Source: Syntrophomonadaceae bacterium (GTDB taxonomy: Bacteria; Bacillota; Syntrophomonadia; Syntrophomonadales; DTU052). From it: 41,986 bases of DNA. The stretch spans positions 1-41,986 of the forward strand of contig JAAYEQ010000010.1 of NCBI GenBank assembly GCA_012728655.1, given 5' to 3'. Positions 9,334 to 39,152 of the stretch are shown piece after piece (position 1 is the first letter of the stretch; every line of letters starts with the position of its first letter). The notes beneath the pieces were generated by a model. It made no database searches, had not been told where the DNA came from, and saw only the letters and a list, made by a program, of their open reading frames with translations. The position numbers and the translations under genes are program-made.

Positions 9334-11553
9334 ATGAAGCGGCTTTCCTTATTAATCGCATTAATTCTGTTACTGGTATCTGAGCAGCCGGCACTTGCTC
9401 AACCACCGGATCCTCCCGGCAAGGTTTACCTGGTGGTGGTTGACAAACTATCCATCAATGATATCGATGCCAAAACCACACCCGCTTTGGCTGAGCTGGC
9501 ACGCAAGGGCGCTGTCGGCTTGGTAAGCAACCGCACCCTTGGCAGCAGCAACACCGAAAACGGTTCATTGACTATCGGAGCCGGCAACCTGGCCCGCACA
9601 TTCAGCCCGGGAATAGTCGCGTATAACGTGGATGAAACGGTGCCCGGCCTGAGTAAATCCGCGGGAGAAATCTATCAGTCGACAACGGGTATTGACCCGG
9701 GTTCCGCCGCGTGCGTGCTGGTAAGCCTCCCGGCGCTGGCGGCGGGGATGGCAAAGGAAAACACCAATACCCGTTTGGGCTCGTTGGGTGAGACCTTAAA
9801 AGAACACGGTTTCAAGGTGTGCCTCCTGGGCAACGCCGATAACGGTTATACCGCAGACGCCAGGTCACGCCCGTCAACAGCCATTGCCATGGACGGTTCC
9901 GGTCGGGTGCCCTTGGGCAACATATCCTCCCATACGACCATCCCCTCCGCCAGTTTTCTGGGGCTGGAAACCAACTACGGTTTTCTGCAGGCGGAAGTAT
10001 CCCGATATCGGGAGGCGGCCGACGTAATAGTCATTGAACTGGCCGACCTCGCCCGTCTGGAGAGAGCCCCGGCTGCTTTCCCTTATGTATTTAAGGCGGA
10101 AAGGATACGACTTCTGAATAACATCGACAACTTTGTCGGGGAATTAATGACACAAATTACCGATAATGATCTGCTGCTGGTCATATCACCTTCCCCGGCC
10201 AAACAGGAACTGGAGTCCAAGAATTCCTTTACCCCCTTGTTGGCTTACGGTTCCGGATATGAAGGCCTTCTTACCTCGGGATCCACCCGCCGGGACTTTG
10301 TGGTAGCCAATACCGATATAGCACCGACCGTTCTATCCTTTATGGGCATCGAAGACTATGGAATTCACATGATCGGGCAGCCGGTAATAGCCAAACCTGC
10401 CGAGGGCCTCGATACCCTGGATACGGCCCAATCCCTGGCGGCATCAACCGCTTTGACCAACCGTCTCCGTTCCCCTCTAGTCAAGGCTTATGTGGTCTAC
10501 CAGATAATTGTTATAGCTCTGGTTTTGCTTTTACTGGCTGTGTTCAAGAAAACATTCCAGTGGCTGCCCCCGCTGGTCCTGGTGATGGGAGTGGTTCCGC
10601 TGGTGCTGCTACCACTGGGAAAGATAAGCCTGCCTTATGAGTGGGCCTATGGTTTGCTGGCGCTTCTGGCCACCCTGCTCCTTACCTGGGTGTTAAGCCT
10701 CGTCTTCAAGCCCAACTATTATAAAGCATTCGTACTCGTAAGTTTTGCCACCCTCCTGGCGCTTAATGTCGATCTGCTTACCGGTGCCACCATGATCAAA
10801 TCATCAGTCCTGGGTTACGATCCGATGGCCGGTGCCCGTTATTATGGAGTGGGGAACGAATATATGGGGGTTATGATCGGAAGCAGCATCCTGGTCTGTG
10901 CGGCCGCGTATCAAGTATGGCAGCGGAAATGGGTGCTGGGCCTGATCGGTTTATTCCTGGCCTCTCAGGCCATCCTTATATCAACGCCCGGACTGGGTGC
11001 CAATACCGACGGTGCCCTGACCGCTCCGGCCGCGTTCTTGGTCACCCTGATGTTCTTCAGTGATATCCGTGTCAGCCTCCGCAATCTTCTATTGGTAGGC
11101 TCCGCCATCGGGTTCTCGGTATTGGGTCTGGTCCTATTCGACCTCAGCCGTCCGCCTGATCTGCAGTCCCATGTGGGCCGGGCTGCCAACCAGGTCCTCA
11201 CCGGCGGTTGGCAGGAAGCCTTAACCATAATCCTCCGGAAGGCCAGCATGAATCTCAAGCTCATACGCTACACCATCTGGAGCCGTGTCTTTTTGGCCGT
11301 TTTGGCGGCTCTGGTAGTTCTGATCTACCAGCCGAGCGGAGCAATGTCCCGTCTTAAAGCGGAATGTCCCCGCCTCTTTCAGGGATTTTCCGGGATCCTG
11401 GTCGGCGCAGTGGTGGGGCTGATTGTCAATGATTCCGGGATTGTCGCCGCCGCCACCACCAGCATATATATAATTGCTCCCGTCCTGCTGCTCATCTTCT
11501 CCCAGAGTGAGGAACCGTGCCAGGAATTGATTCCTGTGCAGGACGAACGGTGA
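9334..11553 (+). CDS. alkaline-phosphatase-fold-like polytopic membrane protein, function unknown
   Basis: This 739-residue protein has a signal peptide (MKRLSLLIALILLLV, cleavage near residue 23). An extracellular domain of about 360 residues follows, resembling the alkaline phosphatase/sulfatase superfamily. KVYLVVVDKLS gives the first metal Asp position, and TPALAELARKGAVG and ANTDIAPTVLSFMGI are typical strands. From about residue 385 to 725 the chain is mostly membrane helices (about ten), with GVGNEYMGVMIGSS and NDSGIVAAATTS between them. The D-H pair usual in phosphatases is replaced by ISPSPAKQ, so catalysis is uncertain. The ATG at 9334 follows GGGAAGGGA at 8 nt; a TTG at 9301 is less likely. 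It may act on cell-wall polymers, but no function is assigned. Confidence 0.75.
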   Translation: MKRLSLLIALILLLVSEQPALAQPPDPPGKVYLVVVDKLSINDIDAKTTPALAELARKGAVGLVSNRTLGSSNTENGSLTIGAGNLARTFSPGIVAYNVDETVPGLSKSAGEIYQSTTGIDPGSAACVLVSLPALAAGMAKENTNTRLGSLGETLKEHGFKVCLLGNADNGYTADARSRPSTAIAMDGSGRVPLGNISSHTTIPSASFLGLETNYGFLQAEVSRYREAADVIVIELADLARLERAPAAFPYVFKAERIRLLNNIDNFVGELMTQITDNDLLLVISPSPAKQELESKNSFTPLLAYGSGYEGLLTSGSTRRDFVVANTDIAPTVLSFMGIEDYGIHMIGQPVIAKPAEGLDTLDTAQSLAASTALTNRLRSPLVKAYVVYQIIVIALVLLLLAVFKKTFQWLPPLVLVMGVVPLVLLPLGKISLPYEWAYGLLALLATLLLTWVLSLVFKPNYYKAFVLVSFATLLALNVDLLTGATMIKSSVLGYDPMAGARYYGVGNEYMGVMIGSSILVCAAAYQVWQRKWVLGLIGLFLASQAILISTPGLGANTDGALTAPAAFLVTLMFFSDIRVSLRNLLLVGSAIGFSVLGLVLFDLSRPPDLQSHVGRAANQVLTGGWQEALTIILRKASMNLKLIRYTIWSRVFLAVLAALVVLIYQPSGAMSRLKAECPRLFQGFSGILVGAVVGLIVNDSGIVAAATTSIYIIAPVLLLIFSQSEEPCQELIPVQDER

Positions 11554-11677: not shown

Positions 11678-12322
11678 ATGAAGGTTATGGTTTTTGCGCC
11701 TCATCCCGACGATGAAATCCTCGGATGCGGCGGTACCCTGGCCGGCCATGTTGAAGCCGGCGATTCAGTAACCGTGGTGTACATGACTTCGGGTGAGGCG
11801 GGAAGCAGCCATATCCCCAAAGAGCAACTGGGCCCCATCAGAGAGCAGGAAGCCTTGAGGGCCTGTTCTCTGATGGGAATTACGGACCTGGTCTTCCTTA
11901 GAAATCCTGACAGTAATCTGTCATACGATGAGGACAACCTGCGGCTTCTAACCAGCCTTATCCGGAATAGACAGCCGGAATATATTTATCTTCCCCACCG
12001 GCACGATGCCCATAATGATCACAGAACAACCTATGAACTGGTGGTTGCAGCCTTGACCCGAGCGGCGCAGCCCACGCAAGAGGATAGAAGTTCGCCCTGG
12101 AAGGTATCACTGGCGTTGGCCTATGAAGTATGGACCCCTATACAGCAGTATTCGCGGGTGGTGGACATAACTCCCTATATAGACAAGAAAATAGCGGCTC
12201 TCTCCCTTCACCGTTCACAACTGGCGGAGCTACGTTACGACGAAGCCGTCCGCAGTCTCAACCGCTACCGCGGGATTATGACCGGTGAAGGCGACTACTG
12301 CGAGTGTTTTCAGATTTTATAA
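11678..12322 (+). CDS. PIG-L/LmbE-family deacetylase
   Basis: This 214-residue cytoplasmic enzyme begins with MVFAPHPDDEILGCGGT. H9, D12 and the downstream H112 of HDAHNDH are the usual Zn ligands, and D11 is the general base. The family removes N-acetyl groups from GlcNAc-linked compounds (mycothiol, bacillithiol, GlcNAc-PI) or from other amides. AGGAGGT precedes the ATG at good distance. The amidohydrolase gene starts 16 bp after its stop, so the pair is an operon and probably acts in sequence on one substrate. Without thiol-cofactor genes nearby, a BshB-type role cannot be claimed. Confidence 0.92.
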   Translation: MKVMVFAPHPDDEILGCGGTLAGHVEAGDSVTVVYMTSGEAGSSHIPKEQLGPIREQEALRACSLMGITDLVFLRNPDSNLSYDEDNLRLLTSLIRNRQPEYIYLPHRHDAHNDHRTTYELVVAALTRAAQPTQEDRSSPWKVSLALAYEVWTPIQQYSRVVDITPYIDKKIAALSLHRSQLAELRYDEAVRSLNRYRGIMTGEGDYCECFQIL

Positions 12323-25601: not shown

Positions 25602-25752
25602 ATGGAATACAGACTCAATCGGCAGTGGTTTAACAGTCCTCGAGCATGCCTGCTGCCGGTTTCCTCAGACAGCCTGATTTTCTTCTGCCGTGAAATTGTA
25701 CCTTTTAATTTAGCGTATATTCTTTGGTAAAAGCAAGAAAGGAGTGTGCAAA

Positions 25753-27927
25753 GTGAAGTCCGTCAATCGTCGCCTTGTATTACTGCTGGCAGCAGTCTTT
25801 TTTCTGACCGTCCTCCCCTTGCGTTCATCGGCCGCCGACCAACCGCCGGTCTCGCTGCAGAGGGCCATTGAGATCGCCAAACTCAATTTCAAGATCCCGG
25901 AATCATACACCCAGTTTACATCGGAATTCAGCGATCATGAAAATTTCCCCACCTGGTCGCTGTCGTGGAGGTCAAAGGACGGCAGCGGCGGCAGTTTTCG
26001 GGTCGAGGTCAGTGCCGACACCGGTGAGATTACGGGCATGGATTTCTACCAACCTGACGACAGCACCAACTTTGCAGTTCGCATCCCTTCTTATTCGATC
26101 GATGAGGCCGCCAGGATATCGGAGTCGTTTTTGCAAAGGATTGTCCCCGGTCGCATGAAAGAACTGCGCCCGGTCTCTCCGATAAAGCAATCTGAGAACA
26201 CCTACCACAGCCTGAACGAGTACGTTTTTTACTGGCAGAGGGTGGTAAACAACATACCCGTTCAGGGTGAGAGAGCGGTGGTGAGGGTGAACAAGTTCAA
26301 TGGAACGGTAGTTTCGTATCAACTGAACTGTACCACCAGCCAATTCCCCTCGTCATCCCGGGTGATTACCGCAGCTCAGGCGGAAAAGGCATTCAAGGAT
26401 ATGGGTATGTTCGAACTGCAGTACCTGGTTCCACCGCCATACCGTCCCTTGAACCAGGACGATGCTGCGGAACCGCAACTGGTTTACCGCCTCACCCATA
26501 AGTCGGGAGGAATGATTGACGCCAATACCGGGAAACCCTTCATCGTCCCCCCGGGGCATTACCTGCAGGGATTGGACATCTACATGGGCGCCGCGGGAAT
26601 GGCCGAAAAACGAGCAGCATTAATGGATCAAGCAGCCAAGGTGGAGTTGTCCCCCGAGGAACAGGAAGAAATCATCAAGCATGCCAATCTCCTCACCCAG
26701 CAGGAGGCCTGCCAGGTTGTATTCGAATGGATCCCTGCAGCCAGAGATATGTCGCTGCGCAATGCCCATCTGGAAGCAGTATATGGGCAGCCGCAGGACA
26801 GAGTCTGGATCTTAAGCTTCACAAAGAAGGATGCCCAGGGCAAGGACCACCGGGTTTATGTCCGTTTGGATGCAGCATCCGGGGAAATCCTGTCCTTCTC
26901 CTACAGTTATCCCCGGGATTCTTTCACCAAAGAAAAGATAAAAAGCCCTGAAGTTCTGGAAAAAACAGCCCGCGATTTCCTGCAACGCCTTCAGCCGGAG
27001 AAATCAAAGTACATCAGATTGGACCCTTATAACGAGAACCATTCGGACCCGGATGATCAATCCCCTATCAGATATTTTTATTTCAACCGGTTGGTCAACA
27101 ACATCCCGGTACCCAACCATGGAATAAGCGTAGCCCTTGATTCCATCAGCGGTGAAATTATTGAATACGAATTATACTGGCCGGACCTTAAATTCCCTGC
27201 TCCCACCGGTATCATGAACACCACCCGGGCGGTTGCGTCTTATCTTGAGCAGCAGCCCCTTACTTTGAGCTATTGCATACTGACATCGGACCGGGGAACC
27301 AAGGAGGTACATCTGGTATACATACCCTGGAGTGATTATGATTCCGGTCCATATATGATGCTGGATGCCCGCACCGGAAAGCTGCTTGACTGGAATGGCC
27401 GGCCGCTTCCCGAGCCTCCGGCTGCCGAAGCCTTTAATGATATTGACGGCATCCCCGGCCAGAGGGAGATCAACATTCTGGGGCAGATGGGCTTCTTCGG
27501 GGAATACGGAAACAGTTTCAAACCCAACCAGCCGATTACGCTGGTTTCGTTTCTGCGGGCTCTCATCCTGGCCCGACAAGGAGATAAAGGGGTCTATGAA
27601 CTTGATGACGCCGAAATACTCAAGCAGGCCAAATTTTACGGCTGGCTAAGGGAGGACCTTCCTGCGAACACCGCCCTTAATCGGGCAACCGCCGGTCGGA
27701 TCATAATTCGCTATCTGGACCTGGAACGAGTGGCCAGGCTGCAGAACATCTACCTAAATCACTATGATGACATCGATAAAAACGACAGCTTTGTCGGTTA
27801 TGCCGCCATTTTGAAAGGATACAAAATCATGGAGGGTGAAGGCTCCAAATTCCGTCCTTCCGCTGTTGTAAGCAGGGCGGATGCTGCCGGTTTCATATTC
27901 CGTATGTCAAAGGTCGACCTCAAGTAG
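25753..27927 (+). CDS. PepSY/YcdB-like exported protein with S-layer homology domains
   Basis: The 724-residue protein begins at a GTG 8 nt from AAAGGAG, with a signal peptide (MKSVNRRLVLLLAAVFFL, cleaved near SSA-AD). Residues 30-560 hold repeated PepSY/YcdB-type units: FRVEVSADTGEITGMDFY, AVVRVNKFNGTVVSYQL, VYVRLDAASGEILSFSYS, SVALDSISGEIIEYEL and MMLDARTGKLLDWNG. The end has two SLH-like modules (FNDIDGIPGQREINILGQMG; YDDIDKNDSFVGYAAILKG...FRPSAVVSRADAAGF). It is therefore probably bound to the wall through SLH. PepSY units often inhibit or chaperone proteases; no protease gene lies next to it. Confidence 0.85.
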   Translation: MKSVNRRLVLLLAAVFFLTVLPLRSSAADQPPVSLQRAIEIAKLNFKIPESYTQFTSEFSDHENFPTWSLSWRSKDGSGGSFRVEVSADTGEITGMDFYQPDDSTNFAVRIPSYSIDEAARISESFLQRIVPGRMKELRPVSPIKQSENTYHSLNEYVFYWQRVVNNIPVQGERAVVRVNKFNGTVVSYQLNCTTSQFPSSSRVITAAQAEKAFKDMGMFELQYLVPPPYRPLNQDDAAEPQLVYRLTHKSGGMIDANTGKPFIVPPGHYLQGLDIYMGAAGMAEKRAALMDQAAKVELSPEEQEEIIKHANLLTQQEACQVVFEWIPAARDMSLRNAHLEAVYGQPQDRVWILSFTKKDAQGKDHRVYVRLDAASGEILSFSYSYPRDSFTKEKIKSPEVLEKTARDFLQRLQPEKSKYIRLDPYNENHSDPDDQSPIRYFYFNRLVNNIPVPNHGISVALDSISGEIIEYELYWPDLKFPAPTGIMNTTRAVASYLEQQPLTLSYCILTSDRGTKEVHLVYIPWSDYDSGPYMMLDARTGKLLDWNGRPLPEPPAAEAFNDIDGIPGQREINILGQMGFFGEYGNSFKPNQPITLVSFLRALILARQGDKGVYELDDAEILKQAKFYGWLREDLPANTALNRATAGRIIIRYLDLERVARLQNIYLNHYDDIDKNDSFVGYAAILKGYKIMEGEGSKFRPSAVVSRADAAGFIFRMSKVDLK

Positions 27928-36229: not shown

Positions 36230-37093
36230 GTGAAAAAAATCTGGATAACAGCCGCGCTATTATTAGCTATGACTATGGGCCTGGGGTTGATTGCCGGGTG
36301 CTCCAACACCAACGATACCGGTCAAGACAGGGTAATCAAACTGGGACACGCCCCCTATGACTATGAGGTTCCCTTTATCGAAATAACCAAGCAGATTGCG
36401 GAAGAGCGAGGTTACCAGGTGGAGGTGATGGAGGGTGATATCGGTTTTATGTTTATGTCGCTGGTGCAGGGAGACATTGATGCCTGGCCCGGAGTTTGGC
36501 TGCCTTCGATTCACCGTACCTACCAGGAAAAATACGGTGACCAATATGAACTGGGCAGTGCCATATTTACCGATGCTCCGGTGGGCTGGGTAGTACCCAA
36601 ATACGTTGAAATAGACTCCATTGCCGATCTTCAGGGCAATGAGGACCTGGTAGGCGGCAAGTTGGTCGGTTTTGAGCCAGGGTCGGGGATGATGCTGGTT
36701 TCCGAGGAAGTAGTTGACGGTTATGACCTCAACATTGAAATCCTATCCGGCACCATGGCTTCAATGATGGCCGAAGTAGACTACGCGATCAAGCAGCAGC
36801 AGCCCATACTATTTCTGGGGTGGAGACCCCATACCATGATGGTAAAGTATGACGTGAAGGTGTTGGACGATCCCAAGGGTTATTGGGAAAAAGACTCCGA
36901 ATTATGGGGTATAAGAAAGGGATTTCAGGACAAGGCACCTGATATGTACAACTTCTTTAAGAACTTCAAGATGAGCCTGGACGATACCGAGGAGTTCCTG
37001 TACGCATATCAAGAAGAAGGCAAAGATGTCAAGGCTTTGGCCAAGGCCTGGATCGACGAACACCGGACCGAAATTAACTCGTGGTTTGAATAA
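36230..37093 (+). CDS. glycine-betaine-type ABC transporter substrate-binding lipoprotein (OpuAC/ProX family)
   Basis: The 287-residue protein has a lipoprotein signal (LGLIAGC, lipidated Cys near residue 24). An OpuAC fold follows: GHAPYDYEVPF, GDIDAWPGVWLPS and GWRPHTMMVKYDVKVLDDPKGYWE. In the family aromatic residues cage a quaternary ammonium. Here the usual PHW reads PHT, and the first W region reads YDYE, so the ligand may be atypical. The GTG start follows AAGGGAGG. It is the first gene of a three-gene importer (spacing 30 bp to the ATPase), under the c-di-AMP riboswitch. Likely substrate: glycine betaine, carnitine, choline or a related osmolyte. Confidence 0.9.
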   Translation: MKKIWITAALLLAMTMGLGLIAGCSNTNDTGQDRVIKLGHAPYDYEVPFIEITKQIAEERGYQVEVMEGDIGFMFMSLVQGDIDAWPGVWLPSIHRTYQEKYGDQYELGSAIFTDAPVGWVVPKYVEIDSIADLQGNEDLVGGKLVGFEPGSGMMLVSEEVVDGYDLNIEILSGTMASMMAEVDYAIKQQQPILFLGWRPHTMMVKYDVKVLDDPKGYWEKDSELWGIRKGFQDKAPDMYNFFKNFKMSLDDTEEFLYAYQEEGKDVKALAKAWIDEHRTEINSWFE

Positions 37094-37123
37094 GTGTTTT
37101 TTCCTATCAAGGAGGTCCCCTGA

Positions 37124-38320
37124 ATGAGTCTTATCGAAGTAAACAACCTTTTTAAGATATTTGGGAAAAACCCGACAAAAGCTCAAAAGATGTTGGCCGA
37201 AGGATATTCCAAGGATCAGATTCTCTCAAAACTGCAGGCAACTGTTGCCGTCAATGATGCTTCTTTTACCGTCGAGCAAGGTGAATTATTTGTTGTGATG
37301 GGCCTATCCGGCAGCGGCAAATCAACTCTGATACGCTGCCTCAACCGGCTCATTGAACCTACTTCGGGCCGTGTAATAATAGATGGTGCTGAGGTTACCA
37401 AGATGGATCATAATGCGTTACAGGACTTGCGCCGCCAAAAAATAAGCATGGTCTTCCAGGGTTTCGCGGTTTTCCCTCATATGACAGTACTGGAAAATAC
37501 GGCTTACGGCTTGAAGATCAGGGGCCTGCCTCTCAAGGAGCGCAACCAAAAAGCTTATGAGACTTTGGAAATGGTGGGGTTAAAGGGTTGGGAGAATTAC
37601 TACCCCGACCAACTCAGCGGGGGGATGAAGCAAAGGGTAGGCCTGGCCCGGGCCCTGGCTACCGAACCGGATATTTTACTAATGGACGAGGCCTTTAGCG
37701 CCCTGGACCCACTGATCCGGAAAGAAATGCAGAATGAACTGATTCAACTGCAGAACACCGTGCGTCGAACCATTGTGTTTATAACCCACGATCTTGACGA
37801 AGCCTTAAAAATTGGTGACCGTATCGCATTGATGAAAGATGGGGCCATCGTTCAGATAGGAACTCCTGAAGAAATCCTGATGAATCCAGCCAGCAACTAT
37901 GTGGAGAAATTTGTTGAAGATGTTGATCGCTCACGGGTACTGACCGCAGAGATGGTCATGAAAAAACCGATTGCGGTTGTTACCTACCCCAAAGACGGAC
38001 CCCGGGTAGCCCTGCGCTGTATGCGGGAAAACGGAATATCCAGCATCTTCGCAGTTGATAACCGTTTCCGTCTCCAGGGAATTGTCATGGCTGAGGACGC
38101 TTTGGAAGCGGTGGAACAAAACCAAAAGGACCTGACACAGATACTTAACCGGGATATATCAACTGTAAAACCGGATACGATATTAAAGGATCTGTTTAGC
38201 CTGCTTTCCCAGAATAACCTGCCCCTGGCAGTAGTCGACAACGAGAACCGGCTATTGGGAATAATAGTCCGTGGTTCGGTCATGGCCAAGCTGGCTGAGG
38301 GAGGGGGAGCTGATGATTGA
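37124..38320 (+). CDS. glycine-betaine-type ABC transporter ATPase with CBS domains
   Basis: The 398-residue ATPase has Walker A (GLSGSGKST, about 60-68), signature LSGGMKQRVGLARAL, Walker B ILLMDEAFSALDP and the ITHDLDEA His. From about residue 270 two CBS-type units follow (TAEMVMKKPIAVVTYPKDG..., QILNRDISTVKPDTILKD...), as in ProV/OpuAA/OpuCA. In related transporters these domains gate activity by ionic strength or bind c-di-AMP. AAGGAGGT precedes the ATG. Its end overlaps the permease start by 8 bp. Confidence 0.95.
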   Translation: MSLIEVNNLFKIFGKNPTKAQKMLAEGYSKDQILSKLQATVAVNDASFTVEQGELFVVMGLSGSGKSTLIRCLNRLIEPTSGRVIIDGAEVTKMDHNALQDLRRQKISMVFQGFAVFPHMTVLENTAYGLKIRGLPLKERNQKAYETLEMVGLKGWENYYPDQLSGGMKQRVGLARALATEPDILLMDEAFSALDPLIRKEMQNELIQLQNTVRRTIVFITHDLDEALKIGDRIALMKDGAIVQIGTPEEILMNPASNYVEKFVEDVDRSRVLTAEMVMKKPIAVVTYPKDGPRVALRCMRENGISSIFAVDNRFRLQGIVMAEDALEAVEQNQKDLTQILNRDISTVKPDTILKDLFSLLSQNNLPLAVVDNENRLLGIIVRGSVMAKLAEGGGADD

Positions 38321-39152
38321 TTTTTTTATTCCGGTGGCTGATTGGATTAACACGGCCTTTGATGCCATCAGCCTTAGTATAAGCCCAACCCTCAGGACAA
38401 TAAGCGCCTTTTTGGAAACCATAATCAAAGGCTTTGAAAACATTCTGTTGTGGCCGCCCGAAGTAGTAATCCTGGTCCTGGCCAGTATACTGGTATGGAG
38501 GGTAGCAGGTGCCAAATTAGCTGTTTTTGCCTTTCTCGGACTCCTGGCCACTATTGGTATGGATGTCTGGCAGGAGACGATGGCCACGGTCGCCCTGGCC
38601 CTATCCGGAACTCTGGTTTCCCTCCTGTTTGCCATACCGTTGGGTATACTGGCATCACAGAGCAATACAGCCGAGAGGATTATTCGTCCAATACTTGATT
38701 TTATGCAGACTCTTCCCAGCTTCGTATACCTGATACCAGCAGTCATGTTCTTCGGCATGGGTAAGGTTGCCGCTCTGGTTGCAACCATGATCTTTGCCAT
38801 GCCGCCTCCGGTTCGTCTGACCAACCTGGGGATCCGTGAAGTGTCCCATGAAATGGTGGAGGCAGCGCGTTCGTTTGGTTCAAACCGTTGGCAAACACTG
38901 GTTGATGTCCAGCTGCCGCTGGCGATGCCTACCATCATGGCTGGTGTTAACCAGTGTATCATGATGGCGTTGTCTATGACGGTCATAGCATCCATGATCG
39001 GAGCAGGCGGCCTGGGTTTGGTAGTGCTGCGCTCGATGCAGACACTTGATATCGGTATGGGAACAGTCGGTGGTCTCGGCATAGTCATCCTGGCTATCAT
39101 TCTTGACCGTTTAACTGAAAGCATTGCCGGCGATAATCGCAATAACAGGTAA
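38313..39152 (+). CDS. glycine-betaine-type ABC transporter permease (ProW/OpuAB)
   Basis: The 279-residue membrane protein has about six to seven helices and the permease EAA loop EAARSFGSNRWQTLVDVQLPL, followed by PTIMAGVNQCIMMALSMTVIASMIGAGGLG, typical of ProW/OpuAB. Only one permease is present, so it should homodimerise. The ATG at 38313 lies just after GGAGGGGGAG and overlaps the ATPase stop; a GTG/ATG further upstream is not needed. The operon thus encodes binding protein, ATPase and permease, and ends with a hairpin. Confidence 0.94.
   Translation: MIDFFIPVADWINTAFDAISLSISPTLRTISAFLETIIKGFENILLWPPEVVILVLASILVWRVAGAKLAVFAFLGLLATIGMDVWQETMATVALALSGTLVSLLFAIPLGILASQSNTAERIIRPILDFMQTLPSFVYLIPAVMFFGMGKVAALVATMIFAMPPPVRLTNLGIREVSHEMVEAARSFGSNRWQTLVDVQLPLAMPTIMAGVNQCIMMALSMTVIASMIGAGGLGLVVLRSMQTLDIGMGTVGGLGIVILAIILDRLTESIAGDNRNNR

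Follow-up and report, generated by a model that had tools for sequence, protein, structure and literature searches.

A widespread, unnamed bacterial protein family joins an exported alkaline phosphatase-fold ectodomain to a membrane domain that may adopt a GT-CB glycosyltransferase fold

An open reading frame in a 41,986-nucleotide stretch of DNA from a Syntrophomonadaceae bacterium (contig JAAYEQ010000010.1; hereafter the window) raises the question of what a protein does when an exported phosphatase-like domain that appears to lack its metal ligands is joined to a large membrane domain. A first-pass annotation had proposed that the exported domain resembles the alkaline phosphatase (AP) superfamily with ISPSPAKQ in place of the D-H metal pair, that it is fused to a membrane part of roughly ten helices carrying conserved-looking GVGNEYMG and NDSG motifs, and that the product may be either a wall-polymer enzyme or a pseudoenzyme sensor or transporter. 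We followed up these proposals by structure prediction, by a family alignment with inspection of the metal-site columns and by a survey of gene neighbors. The proposed fusion was borne out by the structure models and the alignment, and the gene is laid out as follows.

9334-11553, + strand: whole gene, encoding an exported AP-fold ectodomain and an 11-helix membrane domain (739 amino acids)
9334-9399, + strand: signal-peptide-like N-terminus, residues 1-22, ending ...ALA before QPP; read by eye, and a helix in the model

The reading frame starts with ATG, and an alternative TTG start 33 bases upstream is possible.

A widespread family unnamed in Pfam and NCBIfam

The source genome (2.3 Mb in 79 contigs) contained one copy of the gene, and close relatives of the 739-residue protein were found in Syntrophothermus MAGs. 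Comparison of the window protein with Pfam and NCBIfam gave nothing above the curated cut-off. Ten full-length members had no family common to more than one of them (best E values, 0.17 in Pfam and 0.052 in NCBIfam), and homologues from the contigs L090 and L081 gave nothing in NCBIfam at an E value of ≤1e-5. A search of PDB sequences with the window protein returned nothing convincing, the top row, a trigger factor at an E value of 0.015, being taken as chance. A literature search, which included Clostridioides difficile locus tags, listed no description of the protein. Homologues at an E value of ≤1e-5 were nevertheless detected in 235 (59%) of the 398 phylum genomes sampled, and in 212 of the 356 genomes of good quality, so the gene is no local oddity and its occurrence is more than chance. 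The family is thus unnamed in Pfam and NCBIfam, widespread, and of wider scope than one unusual fusion. Nine loci came from a scan of named genomes, Dethiobacter and two Paenibacillus among them, and a plasmid collection gave matches in C. difficile, Acetoanaerobium and Nonomuraea records; in C. difficile the annotation reads either "hypothetical protein" or "membrane protein." Full-length two-domain members also occurred in Nonomuraea (L082) and on L090, a contig filed as phage. As a separate observation, a Syntrophomonadaceae MAG carried a tandem pair of family genes on one contig (L035, 5707-7932 and 7947-10091), and two matching places per genome were also seen in many other genomes of the phylum sample.

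Carriage of the gene was compared with two marker genes across the 398 phylum genomes. SpoIVA was present in 229 of 235 carriers and 107 of 163 noncarriers, counts that are uncorrected for shared ancestry. Within the LpxC-bearing genomes, and with the same lack of correction, the gene occurred in 63 of 66 that had SpoIVA and in 1 of 18 that did not. Among the sampled Bacillota, carriers were nearly all spore formers by gene content, and the gene is also found in Actinomycetota, which are not known to form endospores. Gene carriage therefore tracks spoIVA as a correlate only and does not assign a function, because shared ancestry was uncorrected and Actinomycetota have the gene without endospores. 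The gene was present in 64 of 84 LpxC-bearing genomes compared to 171 of 314 without LpxC, which rules out a monoderm-only (teichoic acid) function.

An origin from a virus or plasmid was rejected. Searches of viral_contigs with several patterns found no relative of the protein, PHROG gave no match to the window and C. difficile proteins and a weak one to the Nonomuraea protein (E value, 0.13), and the sole match in a phage collection lay on a contig that looks bacterial. That contig, L090 (MT835771.1, filed as Bacteriophage sp.), appears to be a piece of an actinobacterial-looking chromosome with glycosyltransferase and metabolic genes, labeled mostly by eye, with GT87 and GT2 assigned by Pfam. 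Three records labeled as plasmids (L081, L082 and L083) likewise look chromosomal: the C. difficile record carries EF-G, Clp ATPase, RadA and DisA genes, and the Nonomuraea and Acetoanaerobium records measure 11.85 Mb and 2.6 Mb.

An AP-fold ectodomain and its metal site

The full protein was modeled with AlphaFold2 from 10 sequences (mean pLDDT, 70; pTM, 0.67; pLDDT under 50 in segments 70-97 and 168-199), and conservation was read from an alignment of 86 rows, obtained from 118 gathered sequences after duplicates were dropped. The ectodomain features discussed below are these.

9403-10407, + strand: AP-superfamily (iPGM-like) ectodomain, residues 24-358, from VIA-align, hhalign and Pfam matches in the family
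9571-9585, + strand: TIGAG, residues 80-84, counterpart of iPGM NIGAG; G84 in 84/84
10045-10056, + strand: D238-x-x-R241, a conserved ectodomain pair, each residue in 83/86
10183-10206, + strand: ISPSPAKQ, residues 284-291, in place of the D-H metal pair
10276-10329, + strand: S315..T318..D328-IAPT, C-terminal AP-fold core shared with iPGM (DIAPT); T318 in 85/86, D328 in 86/86

The top VIA-align match of the ectodomain was iPGM (1o98; Z 19.6, 224 residues aligned, 3.2 Å), followed by sulfatases and nucleotide pyrophosphatases; Z values of 16.7 to 19.6 over 213 to 248 residues to these groups identify the AP-superfamily core fold. YejM and LtaS structures were also among the structural matches. 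An hhalign comparison of a 41-sequence ectodomain profile with iPGM gave 94.5% (E value, 8e-8), whereas the same type of comparison with the unrelated SEDS profile, used as a control, gave 0.2%. When 54 single ectodomains were searched against Pfam, the four commonest matches were all AP-type (SGSH_C in 21, Sulfatase in 9, Phosphodiest in 9 and Metalloenzyme in 8); the iPGM family PF01676 (Metalloenzyme) was recorded at an E value of ≤10, with a best value of 5.2e-5. The ectodomain of the window member itself had no AP-type Pfam match, PF01676 included. These data show computationally that the ectodomain has AP-fold ancestry, closest to iPGM, with which it shares its fold and the IGAG and DIAPT motifs, in agreement with the superfamily first proposed for it.

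The profile alignment with iPGM paired NTDIAPT with RDIAPT, and SNTENGSLTIGAGN with the nucleophile segment GNSEVGHLNIGAGR, and placed P286-S287 at the metal-binding D-H position (SPS against ADH). Across the 86 homologues there was no conserved D-H at this position, P286 being present in 77 of 83; the column equivalent to the nucleophile, column 74, was variable (T in 16, S in 9 and P in 22 of 84), and the Asp of the D37 column was kept in 57 of 82. Judged by these columns, the two-metal site (Asp, Asp-His, His) and the Ser/Thr/Cys nucleophile are absent family-wide, and the computation indicates that the metal site was lost across the whole family. The ectodomain therefore appears to be a fold relative of the AP superfamily and not a catalytic member. 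The replacement of the D-H pair by ISPSPAKQ was upheld, and the alignment revealed no conserved metal site, so that neither a complete site nor a known family speaks against the original reading. In contrast to iPGM, the family protein is exported and fused to a membrane domain; the alignment lacks the iPGM catalytic residues, D-H pair and nucleophile alike, and the signal-like N-terminus and membrane topology do not fit its cytoplasmic location.

Other envelope proteins resemble the family in bearing an AP-fold ectodomain on a membrane protein. The phosphotransferases LtaS and EptA/MCR keep their metal site, whereas in the 86 homologues it is missing throughout. YejM/PbgA is described as a membrane protein whose periplasmic AP-fold domain is without the typical catalytic residues (PMC7018646), although a contrary report describes a metal site and phosphatase activity (PMC7576196). 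The family differs from YejM/PbgA in domain order, which is reversed (YejM has an N-terminal membrane anchor followed by the periplasmic AP domain), in having 11 helices with invariant polar residues, and in occurring in other bacteria; no sequence match between the two was found.

Topology and fold of the membrane domain

The membrane domain was modeled alone with a pLDDT of 77 and a pTM of 0.81, the key loop at residues 497-507 falling below a pLDDT of 50. Its helix list, read by eye, comprised 11 membrane helices after the signal-like N-terminus, which corrects the earlier count of roughly ten. Lys and Arg made up 0.207 per residue of the inside loops compared to 0.076 of the outside loops, a bias that supports placement of the ectodomain outside, as the signal-like N-terminus requires. 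The following segments were distinguished.

10456-11502, + strand: membrane domain with a predicted GT-CB-like fold, residues 375-723, 11 helices, from model and topology
10831-10869, + strand: GARYYGVGNEYMG, residues 500-512, outer loop TM4-5, includes GVGNEYMG
10987-11013, + strand: P552-GLGANTDG560, outer loop TM6-7; P552 in 81/84, G555 in 85/85
11167-11181, + strand: SHVGR, residues 612-616, start of the long outer loop TM8-9; H613 in 86/86
11236-11254, + strand: R635-K636...N640, long outer loop TM8-9; R635 and K636 each in 84/85
11428-11439, + strand: NDSG, residues 699-702, outer end of TM11

The alignment of 86 homologues established that the two motifs singled out at the start are near-invariant: in GVGNEYMG, G505, G507 and N508 were each found in 84/84, E509 in 82/84 and G512 in 83/85, and in NDSG, N699 and D700 were each found in 84/85, S701 in 81/85 and G702 in 85/85. 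In a 66-row alignment P422, R502, G505, G507, N508, G555, H613, K636, N699, D700 and G702 were invariant. All 26 of the 26 positions conserved at 93% or more fell in outer loops or no more than 8 residues from the outer end of a helix; in the predicted topology, then, every near-invariant residue belongs to the outer face, and the inner face has none.

In enzymes of the GT-CB class the conserved residues are described as lying without exception at the outer face; those of clan GT-C1 have, in addition, an extended outer loop toward the C-terminus, Arg residues that serve the diphosphate and a His, Asp or Glu that serves the acceptor, and superposition between clan members gave 5.3 Å over 192 residues (PMC10920833). 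The conserved positions of the family show the same outer-face pattern in the predicted topology, which has positive-inside support, and the long C-terminal outer loop has a predicted counterpart in the loop TM8-9, which averages 49 residues over the stretch that was counted and carries H613, R635 and K636.

A Foldseek search with the membrane-domain model gave no significant match, and the weak matches (E values, 0.18 to 1.1) were mostly transporters such as NHA2, IrtAB and URAT1. We also compared the model with 994 PDB chains by VIA-align. Only six entries reached a Z of 8 or more, namely, four of RodA (6bas, Z 11.2, 220 residues aligned, 4.7 Å; 6bar, 10.8; 6pl6, 9.9; 6pl5, 9.2), WaaL (7tpg, Z 11.2, 272 residues aligned, 5.6 Å) and FtsW (8p1u, Z 9.9); these Z values of 9 to 11 are moderate, as helical bundles can reach a Z of 13 by arrangement alone. 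The RodA and WaaL superpositions may be set beside the published 5.3 Å over 192 residues. Next below came a GPCR at 7.4, with the arabinosyltransferase AftA at 6.5, and NHA2, IrtAB and URAT1 were absent from the best 50 entries.

The membrane profile scored 1.0 to 2.1% against SEDS and 0.4 to 5.0% against Wzy in hhalign, compared to 0.1 to 0.25% for controls, values that are not significant on a scale where the known related pair SEDS-Wzy scored 12 to 84%. When single sequences were ranked by hhalign against 107 other polytopic open reading frames, Wzy stood above the controls (P = 0.001) and SEDS was marginal (P = 0.049), a ranking that is weak because the members are related. The weak SEDS alignment paired GARYYGVGN..E with GSSRWLGIG..PSE, PGLGAN with PDLGTS, and NDSGIVAA with the NIGVVAG segment; this putative motif correspondence is suggestive only. 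Pfam searches of 66 membrane domains gave scattered weak matches and no GT-C family, PDB sequences gave chance matches only, and BFVD folds gave nothing. Naming the domain by sequence was given up, the Pfam matches being scattered and weak and the PDB sequence matches chance. Rows for TAL effectors were set aside as a repeat artifact, and no single domain was significant. RodA and FtsW (SEDS, GT119) and WaaL (GT121) resemble the membrane domain, as modeled, in helix order and in a candidate GT-CB fold; they also share the outer-face position of the conserved residues and, in the predicted topology, an extended outer loop toward the C-terminus that carries His and Arg/Lys. They differ in having no significant sequence similarity to the family, which has a large N-terminal AP-fold ectodomain and its own NDSG motif. 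We consider the GT-CB fold predicted for the membrane domain to be supported but not proven.

Gene neighborhood and candidate function

The survey of gene neighbors revealed a recurrent glycosyltransferase. In a profile search, 43 of 76 unique flanked loci had a GT4 gene on the same strand and no more than 300 bases away, upstream in 40 cases. The fraction is not from a random sample, because loci came mainly from the best-scoring homologues, supplemented by 30 taken from genomes more distant. Removal of duplicates left 88 unique loci, of which 76 were flanked by 700 bases or more on each side. In 47 regions spanning 837 kb, the GT4 gene cluster (PF00534, PF13439) lay beside the gene in 29, and 31 GT4 matches were adjacent and 1 was not. 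No adjacent GT4 was present in 33 of the 76 loci, that of the window included; a GT4 gene elsewhere in the source genome (L084) is cut by a contig end and was left unassigned. The GT4 protein tested had no naming model in NCBIfam, the best match being below the cut-off. The adjacency shown computationally points to glycan chemistry.

Other neighbors were less constant. In the window, the gene is followed by another coding region.

11678-12322, + strand: PIG-L-type deacetylase (PF02585), downstream neighbor; link doubtful

A partnership with this deacetylase was rejected, because the adjacency was kept, among the 47 regions, only in the window and a close relative (L033). Family genes also sit in a frequent operon of the order GT4-gene-SpeD-polyprenyl synthase-MenG-UbiD-UbiA-Mqn (MqnE-type). 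The GT4 pair occurs also without the quinone genes, which we therefore judged to be neighbors and not partners, and a role in menaquinone synthesis was dropped. The AdoMet decarboxylase gene (SpeD) was seen in 23 of 47 regions, often between the gene and the polyprenyl synthase (L041-L080 operon). On L090 the family gene is flanked by GT87 on one side and an unnamed polytopic gene on the other, with GT2 farther out; in Nonomuraea a HIT gene adjoins it, and threonyl-tRNA-synthetase-like and CDP-alcohol phosphatidyltransferase genes lie within 9 kb. Elsewhere in the window, we noted by eye a large exported protein with PepSY-like/YcdB-type repeats and a C-terminal S-layer-homology-like stretch (25744-27927) and a glycine-betaine-type ABC transporter with binding protein, ATPase with a CBS-like end, and permease (36230-39152).

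Our preferred reading, to which we give a little under even chances, is that the protein may be a two-part envelope enzyme, a GT-CB-type glycosyltransferase combined with a noncatalytic AP-fold domain and working with GT4. In this scheme, the GT4 enzyme encoded next door in most lineages would synthesize or lengthen a lipid-linked sugar at the inner face, the lipid-linked sugar would then be flipped, and the membrane domain would transfer it, or a glycan carried in the same way, to an outside acceptor as a polymerase or ligase. R502, H613, R635/K636 and N699-D700 would form a candidate active site opening outward, and the apparently dead iPGM-like ectodomain would serve as a noncatalytic docking lid that binds acceptor or product. 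We infer the catalysis, the lipid-linked donor, the roles of individual residues and the partnership with GT4; that the membrane part is the working half of the family is likely. Of the two initial suggestions, wall-polymer enzyme and pseudoenzyme, both stay candidates, sharpened in that the catalytic candidate is now the membrane domain and not the ectodomain.

The main rival is a flippase or transporter, in which the 11-helix domain moves a glycolipid, such as the GT4 product, to the outer leaflet, where the AP-fold ectodomain receives it. An adjacent GT4 fits a cytoplasmic glycolipid that needs export, the conserved polar residues could line its exit, and the weak Foldseek matches were mostly to transporters. 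However, a flippase should have some near-invariant positions on the inner face, where we predict none, and the transporters named by Foldseek gave way to RodA, WaaL and FtsW in VIA-align; we consider this reading rather unlikely. Improbable in our judgment is a YejM/PbgA-like pseudoenzyme acting as sensor or regulator, in which the dead AP domain would recognize a lipid of the envelope and signaling would fall to the membrane part: YejM structures do appear among the ectodomain matches, but conservation is strongest in the membrane domain, where charged residues are invariant over Bacillota and Actinomycetota beyond what signaling would seem to need, and the gene partner is a glycosyltransferase and no protease or regulator.

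It is quite improbable that the GT-CB likeness reflects a common helix arrangement in a domain of new fold and other chemistry. Such a reading would explain the moderate Z values and the absence of significant Foldseek or sequence matches, yet RodA, WaaL and FtsW take every rank with a Z of 8 or more among the 994 chains, and the topology and the pattern of the conserved face also match GT-CB. An active AP-superfamily phosphotransferase with an unusual metal site (phosphoethanolamine or glycerol-phosphate; LtaS/EptA/PIG-N-like) would account for the AP fold and the LtaS structure among the matches, and the order of an ectodomain followed by many helices resembles eukaryotic PIG-N-type enzymes. 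Neither a conserved nucleophile nor a D-H pair is present in the 86 homologues, however, and the conserved residues that remain (R179, D238, R241, T318 and D328) do not form a two-metal site; with ligands and nucleophile unconserved, an active phosphatase or phosphotransferase was rejected as highly improbable.

Under the two-part envelope enzyme reading, the family may be a new outer-face glycosyltransferase family, a GT-CB fold with a captured dead iPGM-like domain in a two-gene unit with GT4, making an undescribed envelope glycan; this fuller proposal we advance only tentatively. The family matters because it has no name in Pfam or NCBIfam, yet it occurs in 59% of the genomes sampled, has eleven membrane residues invariant in 66 members and keeps a conserved glycosyltransferase neighbor. 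The ectodomain would offer a clear example of how the fold of a glycolytic enzyme can be moved outside the cell and put to a noncatalytic use. If the membrane domain is a GT-CB enzyme, then spore-forming Bacillota, and some Actinomycetota at least, would share an unrecognized envelope glycan pathway.
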